From Aeropyrum sp. (lineage in GTDB: Archaea; Thermoproteota; Thermoprotei_A; Sulfolobales; Acidilobaceae), in the NCBI GenBank assembly GCA_015521685.1, contig WANT01000065.1, positions 1 to 48,749 of the forward strand: 48,749 bases of DNA, in the 5' to 3' direction. The translations under genes and the position numbers were made by a program. Shown piece by piece: positions 6,699 through 45,130 of this stretch; the first letter of the stretch is position 1, and every line of letters begins with the position of its first letter. The notes under the pieces are model-generated. The model was not told where the DNA came from. It did no database searches and was given only the letters and a program-made list of their open reading frames with translations.

Positions 6699-6777
6699 GC
6701 GGCCGTCGTCTAGCCTGGACTAGGACGCCGGCCTTCCAAGCCGGTGGTCCCGGGTTCAAATCCCGGCGGCCGCACCA
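6699..6777 (+). tRNA. tRNA-Gly (anticodon UCC), CCA encoded
   Basis: The acceptor stem is GCGGCCG (6699-6705) paired with CGGCCGC (6767-6773), followed by the discriminator A and an encoded CCA (6775-6777). The T arm is CCGGG-TTCAAAT-CCCGG. The anticodon stem CCGGC/GCCGG holds the loop CTTCCAA, giving anticodon UCC, which reads GGA and GGG. There is no intron at the canonical 37/38 position. Confidence 0.96.
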
Positions 6778-6790
6778 TACCCTGCGCGGG

Positions 6791-6813
6791 CTTGGAGAAC
6801 CTTCTTCTCCAAG
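6791..6813. terminator. Perfect 9-bp hairpin between tRNA-Gly and the convergent regulator gene
   Basis: CTTGGAGAA (6791-6799) pairs exactly with TTCTCCAAG (6805-6813) around a 5-nt loop. It sits 14 bp after the tRNA and 11 bp before the stop of the converging regulator gene, so it may end or separate transcripts from both sides. There is no strong T run on the plus strand, which weakens the terminator reading. Confidence 0.4.
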
Positions 6814-6823
6814 TTCTAAAGGT

Positions 6824-7162
6824 TTATAGCTTAATATTGCACTCTAAGTAAGTTGTTATATATATTCTTATGTTGTTCTTAATGGTATATAGTTTTAGGT
6901 TGGACTGGCTATACATGATCTCAACGAGGCCAGCCTCCTCTAGGACGTTGATGTGTTTTATAACATTCTTGTGGCTTATCTTCACATTCCTGGCTATTTT
7001 TCTAATTGATGCAGGCTCGCCGTTGGTCGCTAGATAGAGTAGTATCTTTATTTTGATGTCGTTCTCGTAGATTCTTAGTATCTTGCTAAGCAGATCTTCA
7101 CTGCTCTCATTGCATTGTTTAAAATCTATATCTTTCATTCTCATCAACTCATTCATTCTCAT
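6824..7162 (-). CDS. Winged-helix (ArsR-like) transcriptional regulator
   Basis: This is a small DNA-binding protein. The central region has a winged helix: a helix with KIKILLYLATNGEPAS, the recognition part IRKIARNVKISHKNVIKHI, and the wing-like GLVEIMYSQSNLKLYTI. The open frame reaches an ATG at 7210, but a TATA box (7214-7221) ends four bases before that ATG, so transcription should begin near 7190. The ATG at 7162 (112 residues) is therefore preferred. The gene is clearly more AT-rich than its surroundings. It is the last gene, in orientation, of the surface locus and might control it; that is inference from position only. Confidence 0.78.
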   Translation of the reverse strand: MRMNELMRMKDIDFKQCNESSEDLLSKILRIYENDIKIKILLYLATNGEPASIRKIARNVKISHKNVIKHINVLEEAGLVEIMYSQSNLKLYTIKNNIRIYITTYLECNIKL

Positions 7163-7213
7163 GACCTGCTTAAAAAACTTCACTTGTTTATAATGATATA
7201 TTGTTGACATACC

Positions 7214-7221
7214 TTTATAAG
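7214..7221 (-). promoter_or_regulatory. TATA box that decides the regulator start
   Basis: The minus strand reads CTTATAAA here. Transcription should start about 26 bp downstream, inside the longest open frame, which excludes the ATG at 7210 and favours the ATG at 7162. Confidence 0.5.
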
Positions 7222-7321
7222 TTTTTTAATTGAACTATTATCAATTTTATTCTCTATTATTTCTGATTTTCGACAGTTTTTCATAGCTTTCAAAAGATTT
7301 GGTAAATAGGTTTTTGCATTA

Positions 7322-8734
7322 TTAAGCACTATGCTCAGCCCCTATATCTTGCCTAAACCTCTTGAGAACCCGGGGCAGCAAAGACGTATAGCCGAAGTAG
7401 ATTAGTGCCGAGCTAACTATTATTGCTCCCAAATTTAAGTAGAACCCTGTATAGTCCTTCACGTAGATTGCTTCGACCTCTTTGGGCGAGTCCATTATTA
7501 TGCTGGCTGAGGTTCTATTGCCATTGTAATCGCCGCTCCACCCTGCAAACACATATTTAACGCCGTATCTGCCTGAAGCCTGTGGCGCTGCTGATATCTT
7601 AGCCCTAGACCCTTCATCATACCATCCATCACCTCCCACCGACTGCACAGCTGGCTCCGACGACTCTGCGTTTAGGTAGAACTGTAGTTTCCAGTTCGCT
7701 ACTACTTTTATGGGACCATCCACCTCTACGACGAGTCTTGGCGAATTTCCTTCGACACTCCCTGTCCACGATTGAAACCTGTATCTTGTACCCTCTCCCG
7801 CGTTTATTACGTCTGGCACCGTTATGACGGCTAGGCTCCCTTCCTTGTAGTAGCCAGTACCCTCCACTTCGCCCACAGGATTATAAGCCTCGACAAGGTA
7901 GTATCTGTCGTATAGCGCCTCAACGACAACAGGCGAATAGATTCTGAAACCCAGTGTTGGGGATGCAAGGTCGCCTGCCTCAACATTCCCAGATACAATT
8001 CTCCATCCTGAAAACCGCCAAACAACCTCATCACCTCCATACTCGGGTGTAGCCGTGACTGTTACCTTGCTCCCCTGCTCGTACCAGCCTCGCCCTGACA
8101 CGGGAGCACCTTCCAGTTCTGACTCGACTTGAACTAGATATTCTATCTTCCACTGAGCGGATAGCTTCTTGGGCTCAAATACGTATACGAAGGTCTCTGG
8201 GTTGGAGGGCTCGGAACCTTCACTCCACCTCTGGAATACAGCCCTCACACCATCATCTAGCTCCACCGTCCCCTCGACACTGATACTAGCTATAGAGCCT
8301 GCTGGATACCATCCCATACCACTTGGATTACCATAGGGGGAGTATATTTCTACAAAGTATTGTCTTTCATAGAGTGCTATGACGGATAAGCCCTCTGCAG
8401 CCTCAACCTCTATCTTACTACTATCTGAGCCCAGATTCCAAGTCTTGAACACGTATCTAACACCCTCGTCAGCATACCAGGTGTCTACGAGGACCTCAAC
8501 TGTATGGATCGAGCCTGGCAACCACTCAAAGAATATCGGGGATGATCCAATTGGGAAGTAAATCACGCCGTCCACGATCACAGGCTGGCCAGATGGGTAT
8601 GTTGCTATCGCTACTCTCACCGGCTCGACGGCACCGCTATCAGACTCAGCATAGCTCAAGGTCGAGGCCGTAGCCGAGACAGCAATAAGAATGATTGCAA
8701 ACATAAAAAGTATATAGCGTCTAGCCATTTCCAC
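7322..8734 (-). CDS. Membrane-anchored surface protein with five InlB-like repeats
   Basis: This is an extracellular protein of 470 residues. A signal peptide spans about residues 7-29 and a single membrane segment lies at 432-452, followed by a short basic tail (LKRFRQD). Between them are five repeats of about 70-85 residues (about 41-123, 125-197, 199-276, 278-348, 350-424). Each follows the pattern G-x-G-W/Y-Y-x-x-G-S, then a hydrophobic strand, a K/R-Y-x-F-x-x-W turn and a closing V-x-A-x-Y. This resembles the divergent InlB B-repeat / Listeria-Bacteroides repeat families, which form small beta-grasp-like modules in surface proteins. The start is GTG 8734 or ATG 8728. It follows the signal peptidase gene in the same orientation, so it may be an anchor or accessory protein of the same surface structure. 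Confidence 0.72.
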   Translation of the reverse strand: MEMARRYILFMFAIILIAVSATASTLSYAESDSGAVEPVRVAIATYPSGQPVIVDGVIYFPIGSSPIFFEWLPGSIHTVEVLVDTWYADEGVRYVFKTWNLGSDSSKIEVEAAEGLSVIALYERQYFVEIYSPYGNPSGMGWYPAGSIASISVEGTVELDDGVRAVFQRWSEGSEPSNPETFVYVFEPKKLSAQWKIEYLVQVESELEGAPVSGRGWYEQGSKVTVTATPEYGGDEVVWRFSGWRIVSGNVEAGDLASPTLGFRIYSPVVVEALYDRYYLVEAYNPVGEVEGTGYYKEGSLAVITVPDVINAGEGTRYRFQSWTGSVEGNSPRLVVEVDGPIKVVANWKLQFYLNAESSEPAVQSVGGDGWYDEGSRAKISAAPQASGRYGVKYVFAGWSGDYNGNRTSASIIMDSPKEVEAIYVKDYTGFYLNLGAIIVSSALIYFGYTSLLPRVLKRFRQDIGAEHSA

Positions 8735-8762
8735 CCATACCGCTTGGTTTTGTATCTCACTA

Positions 8763-8772
8763 TCTAAAATAA
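8763..8772 (-). promoter_or_regulatory. Candidate TATA box for the repeat-protein gene
   Basis: The minus strand reads TTATTTTAGA about 30 bp upstream of the start codon. This suggests that the gene can be transcribed apart from the signal peptidase gene. Confidence 0.35.
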
Positions 8773-8856
8773 CAGGAGGGTACCACGTGTAACCTAAAGT
8801 CGAACAATCACTATAATCAGAGAGACCTCTTGTCTTGTCTCCACAAAGTTACCTTG

Positions 8857-10101
8857 TTACCTTAAGTTCTTTACGAAGTCTAATGCTACAGAAATTGCTT
8901 CCCTAAGCATTAATGTAGCATTGCCCACCTCTGGTATGGTAATCACCAGCCAGCCAATAAGGTTTTCCTCGTAAACGGGGTCAGGGTCGAGGCCCGTGTT
9001 CGCATCGCCCTTAGTTCTCAAGAAAATCTGATTATTATCGTCCACACCTTTCTCTACAACTCTATGTACTATAGGCCCATCTCTAGAAATGAATAAAATT
9101 ATATCTCCTACATTGATCTCTTCTATTGGAGCCTCCCTTATTATGACAATATCCCCTCTAACAATATTGGGGGACATACTGTTGCTCACAACGACGAAAG
9201 CATAATATCCTAGGAAGCCATGGCTCATCCAGATAAGTATTACAAGTCCTAAAGCAACCAGTATTGAAGTCCTGTCTCCTATGGAGAGGCCTGGCCTCTC
9301 CTTCTTAGAATGCCGACTATCATAGGCGCTTGATGATAGGTATGCCAGAGTCGTTATTGTCAGTATAGTTGCTATCGAGTATGTGATAACTGCTGTGGCT
9401 CCAACAATGTTTGGCAGCACAGGGATTATAAGGCTCGAAAACATTATTGGAAGCCTGAATGCTAGTCCGCCACGAAAGCCGTAGTGGTAAACAACAAGCC
9501 CTGCCGCTAGGTTCAGGGATCCCAGTGTTACAAGCCAGTTCACGAATGATGTTATACCTGAGAGCCCTTTCTCTAAACCCTCAATCCGTATTGGATTCAT
9601 TCCCGCAAACATGATTATTAGTGCACTTATTAATATCGCCGCTGCGGGTCTACTCCTGAATCTCCATATGAATGACGACCTCAGGAGTTCTTCTCCCGCG
9701 ACTAGTGTTATTCCGATGAACAGGTTGGATACTATGCCTATGTAATTGTGTGCATACGGGCTTATTCCCAAACCACCTATGAGGCCGCCGACAAGAAACA
9801 TACTTGCAAAGTATGTTATGCTAGCTGCCAGTGGGTTAAGAGAGCCCCTATCTGAGAAGACCCCATTTTCTATTGAAGGCTTGACGGAGAGAAGACCCCC
9901 AACAAGTAGAATTGTCCCTAGTAGAATTCTATCATCTATTGGAGGATCTATTATGAATATTAGATAGTTTGCTGCTAACGGTGTCGCCAGCAATATGGCT
10001 AGAGTAATATTTTGTCCTCCTGGCAGAGCTCCCCAAAATTTCGATGCGAATCCGCCCATTAGATCGGTCATAACTTCAGTAATTCTGGTGCGATGGGTCA
10101 T
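8857..10101 (-). CDS. Archaeal-type signal peptidase I with long multi-spanning N-terminal region
   Basis: The C-terminal part is a signal peptidase I of the archaeal/SipW (Ser-His) type. VSNSMSPNIVRGDIVII carries the catalytic Ser (residue 308 from the ATG), PIVHRVVE the catalytic His (346), and LRTKGDANTGLDPDPV the conserved Gly-Asp region (Asp 366). The first 290 residues are unusual, with about eight hydrophobic segments. One holds GEELLRSSFIWRF, reminiscent of the EExxxR helix of CPBP membrane proteases but with different spacing. A plain archaeal enzyme is roughly half this length. The ATG at 10101 overlaps the upstream stop (ATGA); a GTG at 10110 is possible. The gene lies directly after three genes whose products have SipW-type signal peptides, so they are its likely substrates. 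Confidence 0.85.
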   Translation of the reverse strand: MTHRTRITEVMTDLMGGFASKFWGALPGGQNITLAILLATPLAANYLIFIIDPPIDDRILLGTILLVGGLLSVKPSIENGVFSDRGSLNPLAASITYFASMFLVGGLIGGLGISPYAHNYIGIVSNLFIGITLVAGEELLRSSFIWRFRSRPAAAILISALIIMFAGMNPIRIEGLEKGLSGITSFVNWLVTLGSLNLAAGLVVYHYGFRGGLAFRLPIMFSSLIIPVLPNIVGATAVITYSIATILTITTLAYLSSSAYDSRHSKKERPGLSIGDRTSILVALGLVILIWMSHGFLGYYAFVVVSNSMSPNIVRGDIVIIREAPIEEINVGDIILFISRDGPIVHRVVEKGVDDNNQIFLRTKGDANTGLDPDPVYEENLIGWLVITIPEVGNATLMLREAISVALDFVKNLR

Positions 10102-10661
10102 TCTTCCCACGCCGTATTATAAGCCTCACACAGGCCCTTCAGAAACTCATAGCTGGCTTCATCACCTGCAACAATGGCCGTTTCAGCCAGAGATATGATG
10201 TCTAGCGCGCTGTAATCCTCTCCACCATATGATAGTATATGGCCTTCGGAGTAGCCAGATACGTAGTTAAACCAGAGAGCCAAAAGCTGCGCTTCCAATG
10301 CATCTTGGGAACCCAAGTATGGAGCCTCAAGTACGTCTAGTGCTTCTCTTAACCTAGTGTTGGAGTCATTGACTGAAAAATCAAATACGTCGCTATTGTT
10401 GGATATAGTTATAATCATGTTGTCTAGCTCATTTAGAGTAAATCTAGTGCTAGGCCTCTCATTCAAAATCCCCTCTATCTGGCTAGACCAAAAGCCTTTA
10501 CTCTTAGGGTGAGTCAGCTCTGCAACCTTCACCTCAACTTGTATATGTAGACGCTCGTTCCAGAGTCCCATAGCTATAGGGGTGCTGTATGCTACCACAA
10601 CAGCAACTACGATAATTATTAATATCTTTTTGTATACATTATTTTCGTATTGTTTGTACAA
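10098..10661 (-). CDS. Secreted protein with SipW-type signal peptide and GFW-type domain
   Basis: This is a 187-residue exported protein. After a hydrophobic segment (about 13-30) comes IAMG-LWNERLHIQVEVKV, the same pattern (small residue, LW, E, alternating hydrophobics) seen in the two following-upstream subunit genes. The signal peptidase would cut before LW. The mature part has PKSKGFWSSQIEG and later ALEAQLLALWFNYVSG. These resemble a motif in many secreted proteins that begins G-F/Y-W-K and ends with Q-L-x-A-L-x-L-N; the usual Cys are absent. TTG 10661 is chosen because GGAGGT stands 8 nt upstream; the ATG at 10668 is too close to it and its frame ends after nine codons. Its stop overlaps the start of the signal peptidase gene. 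It could be a minor or tip subunit (inference). Confidence 0.68.
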   Translation of the reverse strand: MYKQYENNVYKKILIIIVVAVVVAYSTPIAMGLWNERLHIQVEVKVAELTHPKSKGFWSSQIEGILNERPSTRFTLNELDNMIITISNNSDVFDFSVNDSNTRLREALDVLEAPYLGSQDALEAQLLALWFNYVSGYSEGHILSYGGEDYSALDIISLAETAIVAGDEASYEFLKGLCEAYNTAWEE

Positions 10662-10699
10662 TAATCATTACCTCCTAATAAAATCTATTTATTTTAAAG

Positions 10700-10709
10700 C
10701 TTATAAATA
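10700..10709 (-). promoter_or_regulatory. TATA box and AT-rich promoter of the GFW-domain gene
   Basis: The minus strand reads TATTTATAAG about 40 bp before the TTG at 10661. GGAGGT follows at 10669-10674 as ribosome-binding site. The T-rich stretch just before it (10721-10745 on the minus strand) could end transcription of the upstream subunit gene. Confidence 0.5.
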
Positions 10710-10752
10710 TTTTGTATAAAGTAAAAAATAAAAAATATTTAGAGTTAGAAGA

Positions 10753-11520
10753 TTATGGACTATATTCATTCCACTGTACTGCCTGCAGATAGATGCAGAA
10801 CCTGTAAGTGGAATTCTCCTCGGCCTCTTGTAGTACTACCATATCTAGCGACATTCCTGCATCATCAAAGGGCTCCAGCTGCACGCCGAAGTTGTTGCCC
10901 CACCATACTAGAAGCTGGCCGCCTCCAGTTTCGTCTGCCGTTCCTACAGAGTTACCTATAAAATCTAAATATATTCCCTGGTCCTCGACTAGTCCCTCAT
11001 TAAGCTCCGTGTATTCTATAGACTCTACTATCCCGTCACAGTTGAGATCGAAAGACACGCTCCTAATCTTGATTGGGACGGTACCGTTGTTCCTGACGTC
11101 AAAGTCCACGTTAACGTAGTAGAATGGATACGCATTGAATACTTCAACCTCAACAGTATCCATATCAGTATCTCCATCGCTATCTAGTAGCTGGGCCTCT
11201 ACACAGCCGACGTCTTTAGTAGTTCTGACGGGGTTGGTCCCAGTCCAGTCGTAGGGGAACGCCCATGGAGGGCTTCCATTTGGATAAACGTTCCAGTCGT
11301 CTCCTGAAAGAGGAGCGGTGCTTTCAGGGTCTCCATCCTCGGGTAGGTCACAGTCGTCGAAGTATGAAAGGCTTCCTTGTATTATTTCCCAGTCTACTTC
11401 ACCTGTCTCAACACTGACGTCCACATACAGGTTCTCATACCAGAGTGCAAGCACCCCTCCTAACGCTGACAGTACTGTTATAGCGAGTAAGGCCGTTACC
11501 ATACTTCCATTAAATCTCAT
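10753..11520 (-). CDS. TasA/camelysin-like fibre subunit, larger paralogue with acidic loops
   Basis: This is an exported beta-rich protein of 255 residues. The signal peptide ends GGVLA (residue 25) before LWYENLYVDVSVETGEV, the N-terminal strand of the mature form. Shared with the neighbour at 11598 are V-x-V-x-NAYP, then NNGT-x-P-x-K-x-x-S-x-x-F, and the ending EENSTYRFCIYLQAVQWNEY. Compared with that neighbour it has extra acidic insertions, two of which fit calcium-binding loops: DSDGDTDMDTVE and DLNCDGIVESIE, with acids at positions 1, 3, 5 and 12. Several NxT/S sites could be glycosylated. The ATG at 11520 has GAGGTG 8 nt upstream. By analogy to TasA and archaeal bundling-pilus subunits it may polymerise by donating its N-terminal strand; this is inference. 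Confidence 0.72.
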   Translation of the reverse strand: MRFNGSMVTALLAITVLSALGGVLALWYENLYVDVSVETGEVDWEIIQGSLSYFDDCDLPEDGDPESTAPLSGDDWNVYPNGSPPWAFPYDWTGTNPVRTTKDVGCVEAQLLDSDGDTDMDTVEVEVFNAYPFYYVNVDFDVRNNGTVPIKIRSVSFDLNCDGIVESIEYTELNEGLVEDQGIYLDFIGNSVGTADETGGGQLLVWWGNNFGVQLEPFDDAGMSLDMVVLQEAEENSTYRFCIYLQAVQWNEYSP

Positions 11521-11542
11521 TTCACTTACACCTCAAAACAAT

Positions 11543-11572
11543 GGGGATTAGATGAAAAAACTCGGAATCCCC
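11543..11572 (-). terminator. Inverted repeat with T run between the two fibre-subunit genes
   Basis: GGGGATT (11543-11549) and AATCCCC (11566-11572) can pair. On the minus strand a run of six T (11555-11560) lies in the loop. It may end most transcripts of the first subunit gene (11598-12194), giving more of that subunit than of the second. Confidence 0.35.
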
Positions 11573-11597
11573 TCCGTTTAAGTTCTGGATCCTCACC

Positions 11598-12194
11598 TTA
11601 CGACTGAGGCTCTGTGAACTCGTTCCACTGGACCACTTGTATCTCTATTGTAGCAGTGTATGTAGAGTTCTCCTGAGCATCATTGCTCAAGTGTATTACT
11701 AGGTAATCATAGCCGCTCTGCCCGGGCTCTATCTGTGCCCCTACAACAAAGGTGTCAGGTGGGTTGAGGTTTAGATCGTCATAGAAGCCGAACTCCTCTG
11801 CGACAGGGCTTATAGTATCATTCATAAAGTTGATACTTTGGACCTTGAAGGGTATCGTACCATTGTTGGTTAAGTCTAGCTCGCACCAGTAGGTGATGCT
11901 TGGGTAGGCGTTGGTCACTGTAACGAATACCGTGTTTCCATCCTCACTTAGCTCGCATAAGATGCTTGACACATCTTTAACTGTAGGGTCTGGCTCACCC
12001 ATCTCTATGGCCTGATCGATCTCGTTGTCGCCCATACTCTCAACGCTGAGTGACGCCTCTAGCTCGCCAGTTTCGACGAACACATCCACGGTGAGGATCT
12101 CGTCCCAGAGGGCGAAGACCCCGCCTACTCCAGCTGCCGCCAAGAGGGCTAGCAGCAGTATGGCAGGTGCCCTCGAGATTTTCTCCGTACTCAT
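11598..12194 (-). CDS. TasA/camelysin-like fibre subunit (probable major subunit)
   Basis: This exported protein of 198 residues is first in a run of same-strand surface genes. The signal peptide ends GGVFA (residue 28) before LWDEILTVDVFVETGELEAS, the hallmark of SipW-processed TasA/CalY proteins. The mature part is predicted all-beta, with VFVTVTNAYPS, LTNNGTIPFKVQSINF and an ending AQENSTYTATIEIQVVQWNE that is nearly shared with the paralogue at 10753. Two Cys (SILCEL and YWCEL) could form a disulfide. TasA-family subunits build biofilm fibres, and a homologous archaeal bundling pilus (AbpA of Pyrobaculum) uses donor-strand exchange. The ATG at 12194 has AGGTG upstream. Its own long structured leader suggests separate regulation. 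Confidence 0.78.
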   Translation of the reverse strand: MSTEKISRAPAILLLALLAAAGVGGVFALWDEILTVDVFVETGELEASLSVESMGDNEIDQAIEMGEPDPTVKDVSSILCELSEDGNTVFVTVTNAYPSITYWCELDLTNNGTIPFKVQSINFMNDTISPVAEEFGFYDDLNLNPPDTFVVGAQIEPGQSGYDYLVIHLSNDAQENSTYTATIEIQVVQWNEFTEPQS

Positions 12195-12204
12195 TCGTTC
12201 ACAC

Positions 12205-12262
12205 CTGGGAACCCCCTTGCAGGACTCCTAGGACGTTAGGTTCCCAGAGCCCCTTCGGGGTT
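12205..12262 (-). promoter_or_regulatory. Structured 5' leader of the major fibre-subunit gene
   Basis: In the minus-strand transcript two hairpins precede the start codon. The first is ACCCC-GAA-GGGGCT (12248-12262). The second is GGTTCCCAG's partner pair 12205-12213 / 12239-12247, a perfect 9-bp stem with a 25-nt loop that contains the palindrome TCCTAGGA. The AGGTG ribosome-binding site overlaps the base of the second stem, so folding could control access of ribosomes. Confidence 0.45.
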
Positions 12263-12320
12263 CATGGATAAAGGTCTGTTGCTTGTATGTTTGGGTTTTG
12301 TACGCCGCGTGGTACTGGTG

Positions 12321-12330
12321 CCTTATAAGG
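12321..12330 (-). promoter_or_regulatory. TATA box (CCTTATAAGG) for the major fibre-subunit gene
   Basis: This perfect palindrome contains TTATAA and lies about 130 bp upstream of the ATG at 12194. Transcription from here would give a leader of about 100 nt that includes both hairpins. Being symmetric, it could also bind a dimeric regulator. Confidence 0.4.
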
Positions 12331-12380
12331 AGAGTTTTGTAGAAATACTTCAACATAACCCTATAGAATAGTTTTTACTA

Positions 12381-12390
12381 CTTATAAATA
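12381..12390 (+). promoter_or_regulatory. TATA box for the thiW / ECF transporter operon
   Basis: CTTATAAATA would place the transcript start near 12410, followed or overlapped by GGTGAT at 12404-12409. It marks the divergent promoter region between the surface locus and the thiamine genes. Confidence 0.45.
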
Positions 12391-12462
12391 GTAAAGCTAT
12401 ATCGGTGATGCTAGTTACTCGCCCAAATACCTCACGAAAGGAAGCTAGCTCTTGCCGCAGTT

Positions 12463-12951
12463 TTGGGTGGTATTGCAATTGCTCTAAGCGTAATTAGGAT
12501 CGACGTGGGGCCCACAAAGGCTTTGCCATGGCAACACATGGTTAATGTTATTGCTGGCGTTTTGCTCGGCCCTGGGTGGGCAGCAGGGCTGGCCTTAACT
12601 GTGGGTATCGTAAGGATGGCTGTCGGGTTAGGCACGATTTATTCAATCCCTGGCGGCGTTCCTGGAGCCCTCCTTGTAGGGCTAGGGTCGATTGTTCTTC
12701 GAAGGCTTGGCAAGAACCCTATATTGGCCGGCTTGCTAGAGCCTCTCGGAACTGCAGTCATAGGCTTTTTAACAGCATACTATGTGTTCGCACCTATCAT
12801 GGGTGATTTAGAAGCGTGGCGAGCCGCATTGGCGGTTATATGGATGGGCTGGGTGGTTAGCACAGCTATAGGCACAGCACTAGGTGTGGTTTCTCTGATT
12901 GTGTTGGAGAGGACTGGCGTTGCACGTCTCAGGCCTTCTAATCATAGGTGA
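12463..12951 (+). CDS. thiW: ThiW-type substrate-binding (S) component of an ECF transporter
   Basis: This membrane protein captures a thiamine precursor (hydroxymethylpyrimidine or thiazole) for an energy-coupling-factor transporter. Diagnostic is VGPTKALPWQHMVNVIAGVLLGPGWAAGLALTVGIVRM, the ThiW signature, followed by IPGGVPGALLVGL and two more helices. The first usable start is TTG 12463 (162 residues), but the frame is open back to 12415 and translates as PHERKLALAAVLGG, which matches the usual first helix of the family. No ATG, GTG or TTG lies in that part, so the real start is unusual or a frameshift is present. It is the first gene of an operon with two ATPases, EcfT and a ThiD-ThiN enzyme. 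Confidence 0.85.
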   Translation: MGGIAIALSVIRIDVGPTKALPWQHMVNVIAGVLLGPGWAAGLALTVGIVRMAVGLGTIYSIPGGVPGALLVGLGSIVLRRLGKNPILAGLLEPLGTAVIGFLTAYYVFAPIMGDLEAWRAALAVIWMGWVVSTAIGTALGVVSLIVLERTGVARLRPSNHR

Positions 12952-13429
12952 GACGGGTAAGGGTAAGACTCCCCTCACTTGGCTAATTGCCAGTTTAGCT
13001 TCAGAGCTGGTCAGTGAGGTTGTGGTCGTCGACTTCGCTCCCGAGAAGGGTGGGATCGGCTCTAGGCTCAAGGCTATCCCTGGGGCTAGGATTTACAGGC
13101 CTACGGGTCTAAGAGCTCCTAGGCTTGAGTCTGGCGGTGACTGTAAGCTAATGTGGAATTTTGCACGTTCAAATGCCTTGAAGACCACAAGGATTCTAGA
13201 CTATGTAGCCGAGAATCCGGGCCAGGTTATTGTCGTGAATGACGCTACAATACACACTCACGCAGGGGATTTCGGCGCACTATACAAGGCGCTCACAAGA
13301 CACTCAGTCGCTATAGTTAACGCCTACTATGGTGATGCCCTAAGGGATAGATGCGGTTTGTCAACCATAGAGAGAAGGTCTGTAGCTATATTGGGGGAGG
13401 TGTTGGGAAGAATATGGGTAGCACGGTAG
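12920..13429 (+). CDS. P-loop NTPase of unknown function inside the ECF transporter operon
   Basis: I do not recognise the family of this 169-residue protein. It starts MHVSGLLIIGETGKGKTPLT, a Walker A motif at residues 10-17. VVVVDFAPEKGG follows about 25 residues later, and VIVVND probably serves as a Walker B-like strand. It lacks the LSGGQ signature and Q-loop of ABC proteins, so it is not a third transporter ATPase. The TTG at 12920 is chosen because it begins directly before the first beta strand; the frame opens at 12899. It overlaps thiW by 32 bp and the next ATPase by 16 bp, so it is translationally coupled to the transporter. A regulatory or assembly role is possible but unproven. 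Confidence 0.7.
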   Translation: MHVSGLLIIGETGKGKTPLTWLIASLASELVSEVVVVDFAPEKGGIGSRLKAIPGARIYRPTGLRAPRLESGGDCKLMWNFARSNALKTTRILDYVAENPGQVIVVNDATIHTHAGDFGALYKALTRHSVAIVNAYYGDALRDRCGLSTIERRSVAILGEVLGRIWVAR

Positions 13430-14130
13430 TCCTTCAAGACGTTTGGTACCGCTACCCAGGAGGAGACTGGATTTTGCGAGGTGTGAACGCTGAATTCATC
13501 AAGGGTATCAACCTCATTGTAGGTTCTACTGGAAGCGGTAAGACCACGATACTTAGGATCGCAGCAGGCACGGCAGTGAGAATACATGGCGGGGAATTGA
13601 GAGGTAGTGTTGAGGTAGGAGGAAAGTCTGTGCTGATACCCCAGGATTTTGATTATTTTATCCTGAATCTGACTGTTGAGGAGGAGTTAATGTACAGCCT
13701 TGAATCCTCAGGGGTCCCAGTTGGTGTGGCTAGAAGAGAGGCTAAAGTGCTTGCAGAGAACCTCGGAATCTCACATCTACTCGATAAGAGGGTATCAACC
13801 CTCTCTACTGGCGAGAGGCAAAGGGTTGCAATTGCAAGTGCACTTGCTCTCGGCGCAGAGATCCTACTAATTGATGAGCCTCTAGCGTATCAAGATCCCA
13901 TTGGAGCCCGTTCTATTGTGGAGCTCCTATCAAGGATTGACGTTGATTCAGTCATCGTGGCAGAGCACAAAGCCCATTACTTCCTAGAAACGGCGAGTAG
14001 GGTCTACATAACCAATCATGGTAAAGTTGTGCAAGTCAACGCACCTTGGGTGAGCCTAGAAGTTTCTAGTTGGGTTGAGGAGAAGGACGATTGGTGGCTG
14101 AAATGTTTAGGTGGGTCTTCAGGAATGTGA
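13414..14130 (+). CDS. ECF transporter ATP-binding protein (first)
   Basis: This ABC-type ATPase energises vitamin-precursor uptake. From the chosen ATG (13414) the 238-residue protein begins MGSTVVLQDVWYRYPGG. It has Walker A GSTGSGKT, a Q-loop (LIPQDFDYF), signature LSTGERQR, Walker B ILLIDEPLAY and switch His in AEHKAHY. GGAGGTG lies 12 nt before the ATG, which overlaps the preceding gene. The open frame extends back to 13351, but that part shows no ABC features. It pairs with the second ATPase that follows to form the usual EcfA-EcfA' heterodimer. Confidence 0.9.
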   Translation: MGSTVVLQDVWYRYPGGDWILRGVNAEFIKGINLIVGSTGSGKTTILRIAAGTAVRIHGGELRGSVEVGGKSVLIPQDFDYFILNLTVEEELMYSLESSGVPVGVARREAKVLAENLGISHLLDKRVSTLSTGERQRVAIASALALGAEILLIDEPLAYQDPIGARSIVELLSRIDVDSVIVAEHKAHYFLETASRVYITNHGKVVQVNAPWVSLEVSSWVEEKDDWWLKCLGGSSGM

Positions 14131-14807
14131 GCTTGGTTGGGAGGATTAGAGACGTCAATCTCACTATATCTTCTCGAGTAACCGCAGTGTTGGGACCCAA
14201 TGGTTCAGGTAAGACAACGTTGCTCAAGCTGGCTGCGGGGCTACTCAAGCCTTCTTCAGGCGAAGTATTGAGGCCTGAATCCGTTGGGGCTAGCCTCCAA
14301 AACCCGTATCTGGGGTTTAGCTCGCATACCGTCATCGAAGACTTGACACTTTCCGCCGGAAGTAGGGATGAAGCGCTGAGGATTCTGAGGGAGGCTGGAT
14401 TAGAGCACCTGGCTGGGAGAAGTCCCTTCACGCTTAGTATGGGAGAAGCTAGAATAATATCAGTACTGGCTGCCATCTCGTGGAACCCGGAGGGTCTTGT
14501 TATTGATGAGCCTACATCTGGGCTTGACCAGCGTTATAGGAGGTGGCTAGCCCGACTCATAGACTCTCTGAGAATACCAGTGCTGATAGCCGGGCACGAT
14601 ATCGACTTCGCAGCCAGCGTAGCCCAGGAAGCTATTATCATGAAAAGAGGGACGGTGTTATTACACTCAAACGTCGATAAGATCTTGTCAAGCGAGGTGT
14701 TAGACCGAGTGGGGTTAGAGCCAGGCCCAATTATGAAGAAGGCTCTGAAACTGGGGCTAAGTCCTAGCAGGGTGGCCAGGTGTGTATTCCTCGGGTCAGA
14801 AGGCTAA
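14091..14807 (+). CDS. ECF transporter ATP-binding protein (second)
   Basis: This is the second ABC ATPase of the pair. Walker A is GPNGSGKT, the Q-loop is ASLQNPYLGF, the signature reads LSMGEAR instead of LSGGQ, Walker B is GLVIDEPTSG, and the switch His is in AGHDIDF. The altered signature is compatible with one degenerate composite site, as seen in other ABC heterodimers (inference). Starts at TTG 14091, GTG 14094 and ATG 14103 are all possible; the frame overlaps the first ATPase by 28-40 bp. About 238 residues, normal for the family. Confidence 0.9.
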   Translation: MVAEMFRWVFRNVSLVGRIRDVNLTISSRVTAVLGPNGSGKTTLLKLAAGLLKPSSGEVLRPESVGASLQNPYLGFSSHTVIEDLTLSAGSRDEALRILREAGLEHLAGRSPFTLSMGEARIISVLAAISWNPEGLVIDEPTSGLDQRYRRWLARLIDSLRIPVLIAGHDIDFAASVAQEAIIMKRGTVLLHSNVDKILSSEVLDRVGLEPGPIMKKALKLGLSPSRVARCVFLGSEG

Positions 14808-15402
14808 GATAACGCCTCCTACAGTAATCGCAATTCTCGCGCTAGTTTTATACATGTTGGTTAGCGGTCAGGTCCTCGCGGCCTCTATAGTAGGGTTAAT
14901 TATAGGTATCCTTGGGGGTATCGTCTTCCACATGCCACTGTTGATCCTATGGATTGCAGTACCAACTCTAGTGGTGGTTGCTGTATTTCACGGGGTGTTA
15001 GCTGCTATTGACACAACAATTAGAGTGCTGACCGTATCTCTCACAGCAAGCGGCCTGATATCAATGCTCGGGCTATACAATTTAAGGCTCTTCCTAGAGG
15101 GTCTAGGTGTTCCACCCAAAGCATCTATACTGCCAGTTCTCATAGCGAGGCAAGCGGACATCTTCTCAATGATAGTGAGAGAGTCCCTTGACTCCCTCAG
15201 GGGTAGAGGAATAAAGGGTGTAAGACTGCTATTCCGACTTCCTATTCCGGTGCTTGTCAATGCATTCGAAAGCTCAGCTGTGCTAGCTGAGGCTATCCTA
15301 GCTAAAGTACCAGAGAGGCGGATGAGCACACTTTTCTGGCGTCCAACTGGATGGGATGTTCTTATATTTAGCCTGACATTGCTGTCCCTATACCTCCTAT
15401 AA
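14782..15402 (+). CDS. ECF transporter transmembrane component EcfT
   Basis: This is the membrane coupling protein that links the ATPases to the ThiW component. The 206-residue protein has about five hydrophobic helices and a conserved cytoplasmic segment. Within it, SMIVRESLDSLRGRGIKG corresponds to the Ala-Arg-Gly coupling-helix motif, here LRGRG. It is somewhat shorter than typical EcfT (about 250 residues). It overlaps the second ATPase by 26 bp. The following ThiD-ThiN gene lies 63 bp downstream, suggesting a common thiamine-salvage function. Confidence 0.85.
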   Translation: MYSSGQKAKITPPTVIAILALVLYMLVSGQVLAASIVGLIIGILGGIVFHMPLLILWIAVPTLVVVAVFHGVLAAIDTTIRVLTVSLTASGLISMLGLYNLRLFLEGLGVPPKASILPVLIARQADIFSMIVRESLDSLRGRGIKGVRLLFRLPIPVLVNAFESSAVLAEAILAKVPERRMSTLFWRPTGWDVLIFSLTLLSLYLL

Positions 15403-15465
15403 GGATTTTATAGAGGGGGAGTTTTACACCCTAGTATGGTAATTACTATAGTTTGAGGTCAAGAG

Positions 15466-16845
15466 GTGGCTGTGTTGGCTATCAGAATTCCCGTGGCAAT
15501 GACTATAGCTGGGAGTGACAGCGGTGGAGGTGCAGGGATTCAGGCCGACTTGAAAACATTCGCGGCTATGGGAGTCCACGGTGCTTCTGCTATTACCAGT
15601 ATCACAGCTCAAAACACTGTGGAGGTTAGGGCGATACACGATATTCCACACGAGGTTGTAAAGGCCCAGATAGAGGCGGTTGCTGATGACATTGGAGTTG
15701 ATGCTGCTAAGACTGGCATGCTCAGTAACGAGGAGATCATCAAGGCTGTCTCCGAGACTGTAGACCAATATGGCTTTCCTCTTGTAGTGGACCCTGTTAT
15801 GGTTGCCAAGAGCGGAGCAAGGCTCTTGAGGCCGGAAGCCGAGGAGGCTTTGAAAAGATACATAATTCCTAGAGCGACTCTAGTAACTCCAAACGCCCCT
15901 GAAGCCGAAGTCCTAGCAGGTATAAAGGTTAAAGACCTAGATTCTGCCAAGGAGGCGGCTCGCATCATAGTAGATGAGCTGGGTGCTACAGCCGCAGTAG
16001 TAAAGGGAGGACATCTCAGAGGAGATTATGTAGTCGACGTCCTCTACCATTCTGGAGAGTATAGGATCTTCAAGGAGAAGAGAATCTACAGAAATACTAC
16101 CCATGGTACTGGCTGCGCCTTCTCAGCCGCCATAGCAGCGGGGCTCGCGAAGGGGCGCAGTCTAGTCGAGGCAATAGAAGTCGCCAAAAGGTTCATCACA
16201 ATGGCTGTAGAGTATGGCCTTGAGATAGGTGCTGGGCAGGGCCCTGTTAACCCTACCTCCTGGATGGCTATTCCCGCCAGCAGGTGGGACGTGCTTGTGG
16301 AAGTCGAGAGGGCCGTGGAGATGCTAAGAAAGGCTGAGGATGTAGTATATAAGCTTGTCCCAGAGGTCCAGATGAATGTTGCAATGGCTATAGAGAGGCC
16401 CTATGCTAGGACGCCTTTAGACGTCGCTGCCATCCCGGGAAGAATAGGCGTTTATCGGGATAGGCTCGTGGTCAAGGGGAAACCAGAGTTTGGCGCTTCG
16501 AGCCACATGGCCAGACTAGTTCTAACCGCTATGAAGTACAACCCCGAGATTAGGTCCGCAGCCAATATCAAGTATACTGAAGAAGTAATCAACGCAGCCC
16601 AGGATCTGGGCCTCCTTGTCTATAAGGCCGACAGAGCCAGCGAGCCTAAAGACGTGAAAGAGGCGGAGGGAGGTAGCCTTCCTTGGATGCTGACAGAGGC
16701 CTACAGGAACCTCGGGAGGATACCAGACGTTATCTATGATGAGGGTGATATAGGTAAGGAGCCCATGGTAAGAGTATTAGGGGCGAAGGCAACTGATGTT
16801 GCACGAACGATTATAAGTATTGCAAGATCCGTAGATAAGGTTTAG
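15466..16845 (+). CDS. thiDN: Bifunctional HMP(-P) kinase / thiamine-phosphate synthase (ThiD-ThiN)
   Basis: This is a fusion enzyme of thiamine synthesis. Residues about 8-265 are ThiD (hydroxymethylpyrimidine and HMP-phosphate kinase): AGSDSGGGAGIQADLKTF, VDPVMVAKSG, TPNAPEAEVLAG, and THGTGCAFSAAIAAGLA with the catalytic Cys/Gly loop. Residues about 285-455 are ThiN, the archaeal thiamine-phosphate synthase: VQMNVAMAIERPYARTPLDVAAIPGR and GASSHMARLVLTAMKYNP. The fusion is common in archaea. The start is GTG 15466; later GTG or TTG codons are possible. It follows the ECF transporter genes and completes an import-and-activation pathway. I looked for a TPP riboswitch upstream and saw none. Confidence 0.95.
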   Translation: MAVLAIRIPVAMTIAGSDSGGGAGIQADLKTFAAMGVHGASAITSITAQNTVEVRAIHDIPHEVVKAQIEAVADDIGVDAAKTGMLSNEEIIKAVSETVDQYGFPLVVDPVMVAKSGARLLRPEAEEALKRYIIPRATLVTPNAPEAEVLAGIKVKDLDSAKEAARIIVDELGATAAVVKGGHLRGDYVVDVLYHSGEYRIFKEKRIYRNTTHGTGCAFSAAIAAGLAKGRSLVEAIEVAKRFITMAVEYGLEIGAGQGPVNPTSWMAIPASRWDVLVEVERAVEMLRKAEDVVYKLVPEVQMNVAMAIERPYARTPLDVAAIPGRIGVYRDRLVVKGKPEFGASSHMARLVLTAMKYNPEIRSAANIKYTEEVINAAQDLGLLVYKADRASEPKDVKEAEGGSLPWMLTEAYRNLGRIPDVIYDEGDIGKEPMVRVLGAKATDVARTIISIARSVDKV

Positions 16846-42681: not shown

Positions 42682-43575
42682 TTGAGTCAGACTAGGGTCA
42701 AGCCCAGGCTAAGAGTACGCTTGAATAGCGAGTACTACAAAGTTGCCAGGACTGTAGCCTCCCTAGGAATAGCTACAGTCTGCGAAGGAGCTCTATGTCC
42801 CAACATATTCACATGCTGGGGTGAAGGGACAGCCACATTCATGATCATGGGCGATACGTGTACCAGAGGATGTAGGTTCTGCTACGTAAAGAAGGGCGTA
42901 CCTGACCCCCTGGACCCACTAGAGCCTTACAAAGTCGCCCTAGCTGTCAGCGAGCTTGGCCTAGACTATGTCACCCTGACGAGCGTCGATAGAGATGACC
43001 TGCCAGATGGAGGTGCATCTCACTTCGCGAGAACAGTAAGGGCGATCAAGAGGCTTAAGAGAGAAACCATCGTGGAGGCCCTAATACCAGACTTCCAGGG
43101 TAGTAGGAGGGACGTCGAGACTGTTGTTGAGAGCGGTCTTGAAGTCCTAGCCCACAATATTGAAACCGTAAGGAGACTCACTCCAGCCGTCCGCGACAGG
43201 AGAGCAGGCTACGAGCAGAGCCTTAGCGTGCTCGAGCATGCTAAGAAAGCCAACAGTAGGCTAGTAACCAAGTCCAGCATTCTACTTGGGCTGGGGGAGG
43301 AGTGGAGAGAGCTGATTGAGGCTATGAGAGATCTAAGAAGTGTTGGTGTAGACATCCTAGTATTGAGCCAGTATTTTAGGCCAAGCAAGAAGCAACTCCC
43401 AGTGGCCAAGAGGTACAGGCTCTCCGAGTTTAGGGAGCTCGAGAGGAAGGCTTACAAGCTCGGGTTCTCCTATGTCGTAGCCCACCCACTCGCTAGAACC
43501 TCGTTCAGAGCCAAGGAGGCCTACATGGCGGCGGTGGCAAGGATTGAAGCTCAGGGTCGTGGTAGACGGGCCTAG
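42682..43575 (+). CDS. lipA: Lipoyl synthase (LipA)
   Basis: This radical SAM enzyme inserts two sulfurs into an octanoyl chain bound to a lipoyl domain. The auxiliary cluster ligands follow CX4CX5C (Cys 34, 39, 45), and the radical SAM cluster CX3CX2C is Cys 60, 64, 67. Also seen are [37 protein letters not shown] and GLGEEWREL. The end [10 protein letters not shown] corresponds to the R-S-S-Y motif with the Ser ligand. The 297 residues are normal. TTG 42682 has GGTGG 6 nt upstream. It lies between the lipoyl protein and two transferases. Confidence 0.96.
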
Positions 43576-44338
43576 GGATCCCAGGCTTAACATGGCTATA
43601 GACGAGGCCCTTTTACTGGCCGGCAGGACACCGACACTAAGAATCTACCAGTGGTTTCCAACTGGCGTAAGTATTGGGCGGAGGCAGAGGTCTAGCGATA
43701 TTAACCTAGCCGAGGCCAGAAGGCGGGGATATGTTGTTGTGAGGAGGCCAACGGGTGGTGCCGCGCTCATCCACCCATGGAAGCATGAAGTAACCTACTC
43801 TATTGTGATCGACGAGTCACACCCCATATTCCAGCTTGATGTAGCCCATAGTGCCGCGATCATAGCCCAGGGGGTGGCCTACGCTCTAGAGAAGCTCGGC
43901 CTCCACAGCATGATCGGAGGCTTCAGAGGTTTTGAGGTCGAGGGCGGGTTGTGTTATGTTAGGCCTGGTAGTAGTGATGTCGTAGTATTAGGTAGAAAGG
44001 TGTCGGGCAGCGCTCAGAGGCGGATACGTGGCAGGCTACTGCAGCATGGCACTGTGCTTCTCAGGTTCGACGCCGATGAATGGTCTTCGATCATACCTCT
44101 AGGCGGTGTAGGTCCTGAGGACCTCCGGACCAAAATTGCGGGTATTGAGCAGATACTGGGCAGGAGTATAGATTTCGAGGAGATCACTAAAGGCCTCGTT
44201 GAGGGCTTCGCCCGTGTACTAGGAGTACCGTCGGGAGGCGTTGAATACTCTAGTCTCGAGCCTCAAGAGCTCAGCATAGCTCTCAAGCTATTCGAGGAAA
44301 AATACATGAGTTATGATTGGAACTTGAGGGGCTGGTAG
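43544..44338 (+). CDS. LipM-like octanoyl/lipoyl transferase
   Basis: This 264-residue protein belongs to the biotin/lipoate protein ligase fold. [58 protein letters not shown] and [12 protein letters not shown] are very close to LipM octanoyltransferases. Cys 137 (EGGLCYVR) lies where LipM has its acyl-carrying Cys, and Lys 152 is the conserved ligase Lys. It overlaps lipA by 32 bp. In this operon it would load octanoyl groups on the lipoyl protein before LipA acts. The octanoyl donor in an archaeon is unclear. Confidence 0.85.
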
Positions 44339-44347
44339 GGTAGGTGT

Positions 44348-45130
44348 ATGACCCTCGTTATAGCTAGCGAGGGCGGCTCGCCACACTACAATCTGGCATT
44401 TGAGGAGGCTTTGCTACACTACGCAAGCCTACGTAGAAGGCCTGCTGCTAGACTCTGGATAAACCCGCCTTCCATTGTCATAGGATACACTCTAAGTGCC
44501 TGCGAGGAGGTGAAATGTGAGGCTGCTAGAAAGAACCTGGTTCCGATTGTGCGGAGGGTTAGCGGTGGTGGAGCGGTGTACCATGACTATGGTAACGTGA
44601 ACATATCACTAGCTCTACCTGCCAGGATGGGGGTTAGAGAGGCTTACAGGCTGATCACAGGCCTCATAATATCCATCCTGAAAGACTTGGGCCTAGACGC
44701 TAGGGTTGAGAACTTCAACGACGTTGCAGTTGGCCCCTGGAAGGTCTCTGGGACATCAGCGGCAATACGCAGCAATGCAACCCTCGTCCACGGAACCCTC
44801 CTGGTGAACACAGACCATAGGGTTATACATAAGTATGTTATACCCAGGCTGGATCGCGTCGAGAGAGGAGAGGTGAGTCGCGTGAAATACAACCCAAGAT
44901 CAATATCAGACATCCTAGGCACTAATCTAGACCCTCTAGAGGCGATCAAGCCCATAGCCAGCAACGTTAGATCAGCATTAGGTGTAGGGGGTCTAACCCT
45001 CGAGGAGACTCCTAGAGAAGTTTCAAGCTTGGCAATGAAGCTATGTATAGAGAAATACTCGTCAGACCCTCGCTGGAGCCCCCTAGATAAGGGAACGTGT
45101 TTAGAGCCCAAACCCATCTCTACACTCTAG
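44348..45130 (+). CDS. Lipoate-protein ligase A-like protein
   Basis: This is a second member of the lipoate ligase fold, 260 residues. YNLAFEEALLHYA, WINPPSIVIGYTLSACEEV, IVRRVSGGGAVYHDYGNVNIS and GPWKVSGTSAAIRSNATLVHGTLLV are diagnostic, with Lys 132 in W-K-V-S-G-T. R-R-x-S-G-G-G-A-V-Y-H-D is the LplA form, unlike the R-R-P-T-G-G of the LipM-like neighbour. It may activate free lipoate with ATP or move lipoyl groups between proteins. It begins 9 bp after the LipM-like gene and ends the operon. Confidence 0.88.
   Translation: MTLVIASEGGSPHYNLAFEEALLHYASLRRRPAARLWINPPSIVIGYTLSACEEVKCEAARKNLVPIVRRVSGGGAVYHDYGNVNISLALPARMGVREAYRLITGLIISILKDLGLDARVENFNDVAVGPWKVSGTSAAIRSNATLVHGTLLVNTDHRVIHKYVIPRLDRVERGEVSRVKYNPRSISDILGTNLDPLEAIKPIASNVRSALGVGGLTLEETPREVSSLAMKLCIEKYSSDPRWSPLDKGTCLEPKPISTL

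Follow-up and report, generated by a model that had tools for sequence, protein, structure and literature searches.

The window considered here is a whole 48,749-nucleotide stretch of DNA from the thermophilic archaeon Aeropyrum sp. (contig WANT01000065.1, assembly GCA_015521685.1). It contains five adjacent minus-strand genes, P0001 to P0005, which form a single cassette and very probably (probability about 0.85) a donor-strand fibre operon of the TasA/AbpX type. The five genes are grouped because exactly these five are missing in G005 (locus L174; taken here to be Aeropyrum pernix), whose flanks are intact: the ThiW-like/energy-coupling factor (ECF) genes, a homologue of P0006, tRNA-Gly and a multidrug and toxin extrusion (MATE)-like gene are kept (window 6699-12463). 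All five are present in G003, which is presumably A. camini. A first-pass annotation, made from the letters alone, had read the locus as a TasA-like fibre or bundling-pilus system with its own signal peptidase, and its gene positions proved correct, all five open reading frames (ORFs) being found on the minus strand. The tags P0001 to P0006 denote minus-strand ORFs of the window, and L and G numbers denote compared loci and genomes. The features are as follows (AF2, AlphaFold2; aa, amino acids).

11598..12194, minus strand: P0001, putative fibre subunit A, 198 aa (AbpX profile match, AF2 model)
10753..11520, minus strand: P0002, putative fibre subunit B, 255 aa (same family as P0001; AbpX match)
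10098..10661, minus strand: P0003, exported protein of 187 aa, proposed nucleator or cap (N-terminal profile match, position of orthologues, AF2)
8857..10110, minus strand: P0004, dedicated long signal peptidase (TIGR02228, catalytic residues, hydropathy)
7322..8734, minus strand: P0005, exported InlB B-repeat protein with a C-terminal membrane segment, proposed membrane-proximal anchor (PF18998, hydropathy, slot comparison)
6824..7210, minus strand: P0006, winged-helix regulator adjoining the cassette (PF13412/PF01022); its homologue is kept in L174, which lacks the five genes

The cassette has a G+C content of 0.42-0.485 (window 7001-12000) compared with about 0.49-0.55 in its flanks. P0003 starts with TTG, preceded by AGGAGGT, and its TGA overlaps the ATG of P0004 at 10101 (sequence ATGA); a gap of 122 bp precedes P0005.

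Putative fibre subunits

The families of P0001 and P0002 are both homologous to a fibre subunit of solved structure, AbpX of Pyrodictium abyssi. A profile of subunit A built from 24 homologues matches the AbpX chains 9sj2 (E=3.6e-18) and 9rhp (E=1e-13), and the subunit B family profile matches 9sj2 at E=9.8e-10; as a single sequence, P0002 reaches AbpX at E=0.011. The homology includes the N-terminal donor strand: the aligned chain of 9sj2 starts QWSETLSLSATISTG, and the window proteins carry LWDEILTVDVFVETG and LWYENLYVDVSVETG in the corresponding position. In 9rhp the AbpX strand follows a glycine-rich linker at the C-terminal end, so that this entry appears to be a self-complemented construct. 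A match of profile A8 to AbpX at 7e-32 was discarded as homology evidence, being circular (A8 contains AbpX itself).

The first-pass annotation had noticed NAYP, NNGT-x-P-x-K and a VQWNE ending in two of the proteins. These elements are indeed common to P0001 and P0002, as NAYP, NNGT(I/V)PxK and a (V/A)VQWNE end, and the two genes are moreover detectably homologous in three segments (E=2.1e-6, 6.6e-6 and 2e-4). A tree of 128 subunits separates A from B with 10 misplacements and a support of 0.95, indicating that most archaeal loci have both, as separate lineages. Single P0001 and P0003 sequences retrieved nothing relevant from PDB sequences, Pfam holds no family for P0001 or P0002, and both fall under the cut-off of 60 bits for BsaA (TIGR04090; 23.1 and 10.4 bits).

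P0001 has a signal helix at about residues 9-27, a predicted cleavage site A|LWDE, a donor strand at about LWDEILTVDVFVETG and a predicted beta-sandwich ending in VVQWNE. In its AF2 model (mean predicted local distance difference test score, pLDDT, 82), the signal helix is followed by unpaired residues 28-46 and then by 8 beta strands; the donor segment is conserved in the subunit A family alignment. A Foldseek search with this model placed the TasA fibre 8aur at rank 4 (probability 0.93, E=0.015, template modelling (TM) score 0.39), so that the predicted fold is supportive of a TasA-like fibre but not decisive. The profile and structure comparison called for by the earlier annotation thus yielded AbpX for both families and a predicted beta body for P0001.

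P0002 carries a conserved DxDGDxDxD-type segment and the motif WWGNNFG, which reads WWGDNFG in relatives; the Asp and WGxNFG columns are conserved. Its Asp-rich DxDGDGDxD-like segment (residues ~113-121), conserved in close subunit-B homologues, is possibly a calcium-loop-like calcium site. In P0001, the cysteine pair C80 and C104 is kept in the window's clade of subunit A and could form a disulfide joining neighbouring strands.

Signal peptidase

P0004 matches the archaeal signal peptidase I model TIGR02228 with 85 bits (cut-off 51.9 (51.85)), and its catalytic Ser-Met, His-Arg and Asp residues are invariant among relatives, which bears out the Ser/His signal peptidase named earlier. Hydropathy predicts about 8 transmembrane segments ahead of an endoplasmic reticulum (ER)-type Ser/His/Asp catalytic domain. 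The score against the Bacillus SipW equivalog NF046067 is 55.4 bits, under the cut-off of 190. Because the genome holds one other signal peptidase, a short one of 182 aa away from the locus, P0004 is considered an extra, locus-bound dedicated enzyme, in line with the specialised peptidase that had been suggested.

The substrates may explain this dedication. In alignments of the P0001, P0002 and P0003 families, a W is invariant two residues past the AxA-like site. TasA, which is processed by an ER-type peptidase of its own, likewise bears an aromatic residue at P2', and Escherichia coli LepB cleaves sites of this kind poorly (PMC10269814). An aromatic W at P2' is therefore a plausible reason for a dedicated enzyme.

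Gene order and distribution

Most of 47 public loci, of which two are bacterial, repeat the order subunit A, subunit B, (third protein), long Ser/His signal peptidase, membrane protein. Subunit A lies directly upstream of B in 44 of the 47, and the peptidase lies no more than two genes downstream, also in 44. The gene-order conservation that the first reading had proposed to look for in related genomes was accordingly found in archaea and in some bacteria. The subunit-B family is present in 24 of 60 related genomes. In P. abyssi (G070), a 100% match to the AbpX fragment lies directly upstream of a member of the long-peptidase family to which P0004 belongs (6e-56).

Bacteria related to Syntrophomonadaceae have the order A-B-peptidase-DUF5305, in one case with a sensor kinase and a response regulator just upstream. 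Contamination is an unlikely origin of the bacterial loci, because 16 of 81 genomes around the Syntrophomonadaceae genome (itself included) carry homologues, and several have the same operon. A further locus, in Dehalococcoidales, is a single 7-kb contig outside this 81-genome comparison; it encodes, in the position of P0003, a protein that resembles P0003 at its N-terminus and carries a GFW motif.

Third protein

P0003 consists of an N-terminus resembling a donor strand (GLWNERLHIQVEVKVAEL, LWNERL...) and a predicted all-helical SKGFW domain. The subunit-family profile finds this N-terminus genome-wide at E=0.0012, over a segment that includes part of the signal peptide. The AF2 model (5 sequences, mean pLDDT 80) comprises a signal helix, a disordered region at 39-50 that holds the strand-like part, and a helical bundle; no acceptor groove is visible in it, and a fold search of the PDB with P0003 returned only noise. 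The claim of three different subunits was therefore not sustained, since P0003 is predicted to be all-helical, without a beta-sandwich body. The N-terminal pattern said to be shared by three proteins does extend to P0003, in the invariant W and the LWNERL... segment; the NAYP/NNGT/QWNE body does not.

Able to give a strand and apparently having no groove to take one, P0003 could occupy only one end of a fibre, and it probably nucleates or caps it. A comparable argument has been made for TapA, whose closed immunoglobulin (Ig) domain cannot accept a strand (Roske et al., PMC10151520). Along a TasA fibre, the strand of every subunit is inserted into subunit n+1. The donor of the first strand is proposed to be TapA (PMC10151520). 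Compared with TapA, P0003 has the TasA-like N-terminal strand, whereas a complete Ig-fold body is absent from its helical model; it would thus be TapA-like in role at most, and no TapA homologue. In five further archaeal genomes, its orthologues are flanked by subunit B and the peptidase.

Across loci, the protein in third position differs widely: it may be helical, fused to CnaB/SdrD, rich in Cys/His or missing. In L064, L128, L131 and L132, from other archaea, the third gene encodes a TasA-like domain extended to 370-470 aa, some with SdrD/CnaB-like repeats. In L141-L143, an SKGYW helical domain ends archaeal surface proteins of 512-518 aa that are of collagen-adhesin/SdrD type in appearance.

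Membrane protein

P0005 contains InlB B-repeats (Flg_new_2, PF18998, E=3.7e-17) and hydrophobic segments at 3-29 and 435-453, so that the repeat protein with a membrane segment described in the first pass was recovered. Against DUF5305 (PF17231) it gave no match, only the PF18998 repeats passing; it holds the slot without belonging to the family. Among the 47 public loci, DUF5305 accompanies the peptidase in 32, usually directly after it, an InlB-repeat protein does so in 4, and no locus has both. The DUF5305 examples checked have two hydrophobic segments. Sharing one position, the two kinds of protein may well have a similar function, probably at the base of the fibre: an anchor role for P0005 is plausible, and on positional grounds it probably holds or organises that base.

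Proposed assembly and alternative explanations

P0001, P0002 and P0003 would be exported by Sec and cut by P0004 at A|xW (G|LW in P0003), which would free their N-terminal strands. The strands of P0001 and P0002 would then enter the groove left open in the beta-sandwich of the following subunit, giving a polymer. P0003, giving a strand and taking none, would be confined to a fibre end and would most likely start the fibre as TapA is proposed to do, and the membrane-anchored repeat protein P0005 would hold or organise its base. A fibre of this kind might be used in biofilm formation or adhesion. A bolder proposal, which is considered rather unlikely, is that the domain of about 8 transmembrane segments in the long peptidase is an assembly platform coupling cleavage to strand insertion at the membrane, in an ancient secretion-and-assembly module common to archaea and bacteria, with P0003 as starter and DUF5305 or InlB proteins as base holders.

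Several observations weigh against a TasA/AbpX-type fibre operon. With the subunit A or B family profile, only AbpX was obtained and no AbpA entry at E<=10, so that the earlier fibre reading stands through AbpX homology, the adjacency of abpX to the same peptidase family and the conserved operon, and not through AbpA. TasA itself is reached by a family profile only at E~0.2, and the TM-score to it is low; of the comparisons that had been proposed, the one with TasA came out weak and the one with AbpA negative. Neither AbpX nor AbpA is among the 50 fold matches listed for P0001, in a library from which the newest AbpX entries may be absent. Some relatives lack the third protein or the anchor gene, and the cap and anchor roles are read from anatomy and position.

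Weak camelysin (PF12389) matches in 6 of 24 subunit-A homologues (best 0.0013) raise the question of whether P0001 and P0002 might be non-polymerising beta-sandwich proteins secreted in a SipW-dependent way, either camelysin-like or part of a soluble matrix. This is improbable, given that PF12389 finds nothing in the window's own genome, that the donor segment is conserved in the family and left unpaired in the AF2 model, and that the closest solved relative, AbpX (ABPx), is described as forming ABP-like donor-strand exchanged fibres (PMC11952670). Still less credible is a reading of the genes as type IV-like (class III) pilins or as parts of a structure related to the archaellum: weak matches to UpsA, ArlF and ArlG are scattered among the homologues and T2SSE-type ATPases are encoded elsewhere in the genome, but the cassette has no T2SSE ATPase or membrane platform gene, its partner enzyme is a Ser/His signal peptidase I, and cleavage is predicted behind the hydrophobic helix, at sites of the signal peptidase I type (AxA|xW).

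Within the donor-strand fibre operon, the roles of two proteins can be read differently. The main rival to a nucleator or cap is that P0003 is a tip adhesin or free secreted helper whose helical SKGFW domain attaches to a ligand or to some surface. The variability of the third position is as expected for an adhesin, and large surface proteins that contain SdrD-like modules likewise terminate in the SKGYW domain; the direction of strand transfer in TasA and the proposed first donor TapA, together with a donor strand without a groove, fit instead the strand-giving end, and the ATGA overlap of P0003 and P0004 parallels tapA-sipW. An adhesin or helper is a real possibility, short of an even chance. 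Somewhat less likely is that P0005 is a generic surface repeat protein present in the operon by chance, as its InlB repeats, its lack of a DUF5305 match and the gap before the gene would allow; it follows the peptidase in the loci found, in the DUF5305 slot, and it occurs where the cassette occurs and is missing where the cassette is missing.

Neighbouring genes

On the plus strand (window 12463-16845), an ECF-type vitamin transporter-like block (membrane protein, two ATPases, permease) is followed by a ThiD-ThiN-like fusion; thiamine-precursor uptake is its probable function. At window 42682-45130, a lipoyl synthase-like gene precedes two adjacent lipoate-protein ligase-like genes. The stretch upstream of P0001 contains a hairpin that was dropped (z=-1.0, not unusual; sequence not kept in the sister genome).

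Comparison with known systems and significance

AbpX of P. abyssi (PDB 9sj2, 9rhp) is a homologous subunit with the same mature N-terminal donor strand, but its locus shows one subunit and a peptidase, whereas in the window two TasA-like subunits are accompanied by a helical third protein and a membrane protein with InlB repeats. The archaeal bundling pili of Pyrobaculum calidifontis (AbpA) share, as papers citing the work on them report, the same proposed principle of a TasA-like donor-strand fibre. Like Bacillus subtilis tapA-sipW-tasA, the cassette combines exported beta-sandwich subunits, a dedicated ER-type signal peptidase and an accessory protein with a TasA-like N-terminus; tapA and sipW overlap there (PMC10151520), as P0003 and P0004 do here. 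It differs in the about 8 transmembrane segments of P0004, in the additional InlB/DUF5305 membrane protein and in the predicted helical body of P0003, that of TapA being an Ig domain (PMC10151520). In Clostridium perfringens, the operon sipW-bsaABCRSD comprises several genes for a SipW-dependent matrix fibre and has regulators of its own (PMC7395162); P0001 has a sub-threshold match to its BsaA, and gene order and content differ.

Altogether, the interest of the cassette lies in the completeness of the set, its cross-domain conservation, a third protein predicted to be helical and without a groove, the long peptidase and the exchange of one membrane protein for another. Few structures are known for archaeal donor-strand fibres, and this compact, complete gene set can be compared across archaea and some bacteria. 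Two species of one genus, one with and one without the cassette, form a natural pair. P0003 is a candidate nucleator, and P0005 and DUF5305 proteins are candidate anchors.

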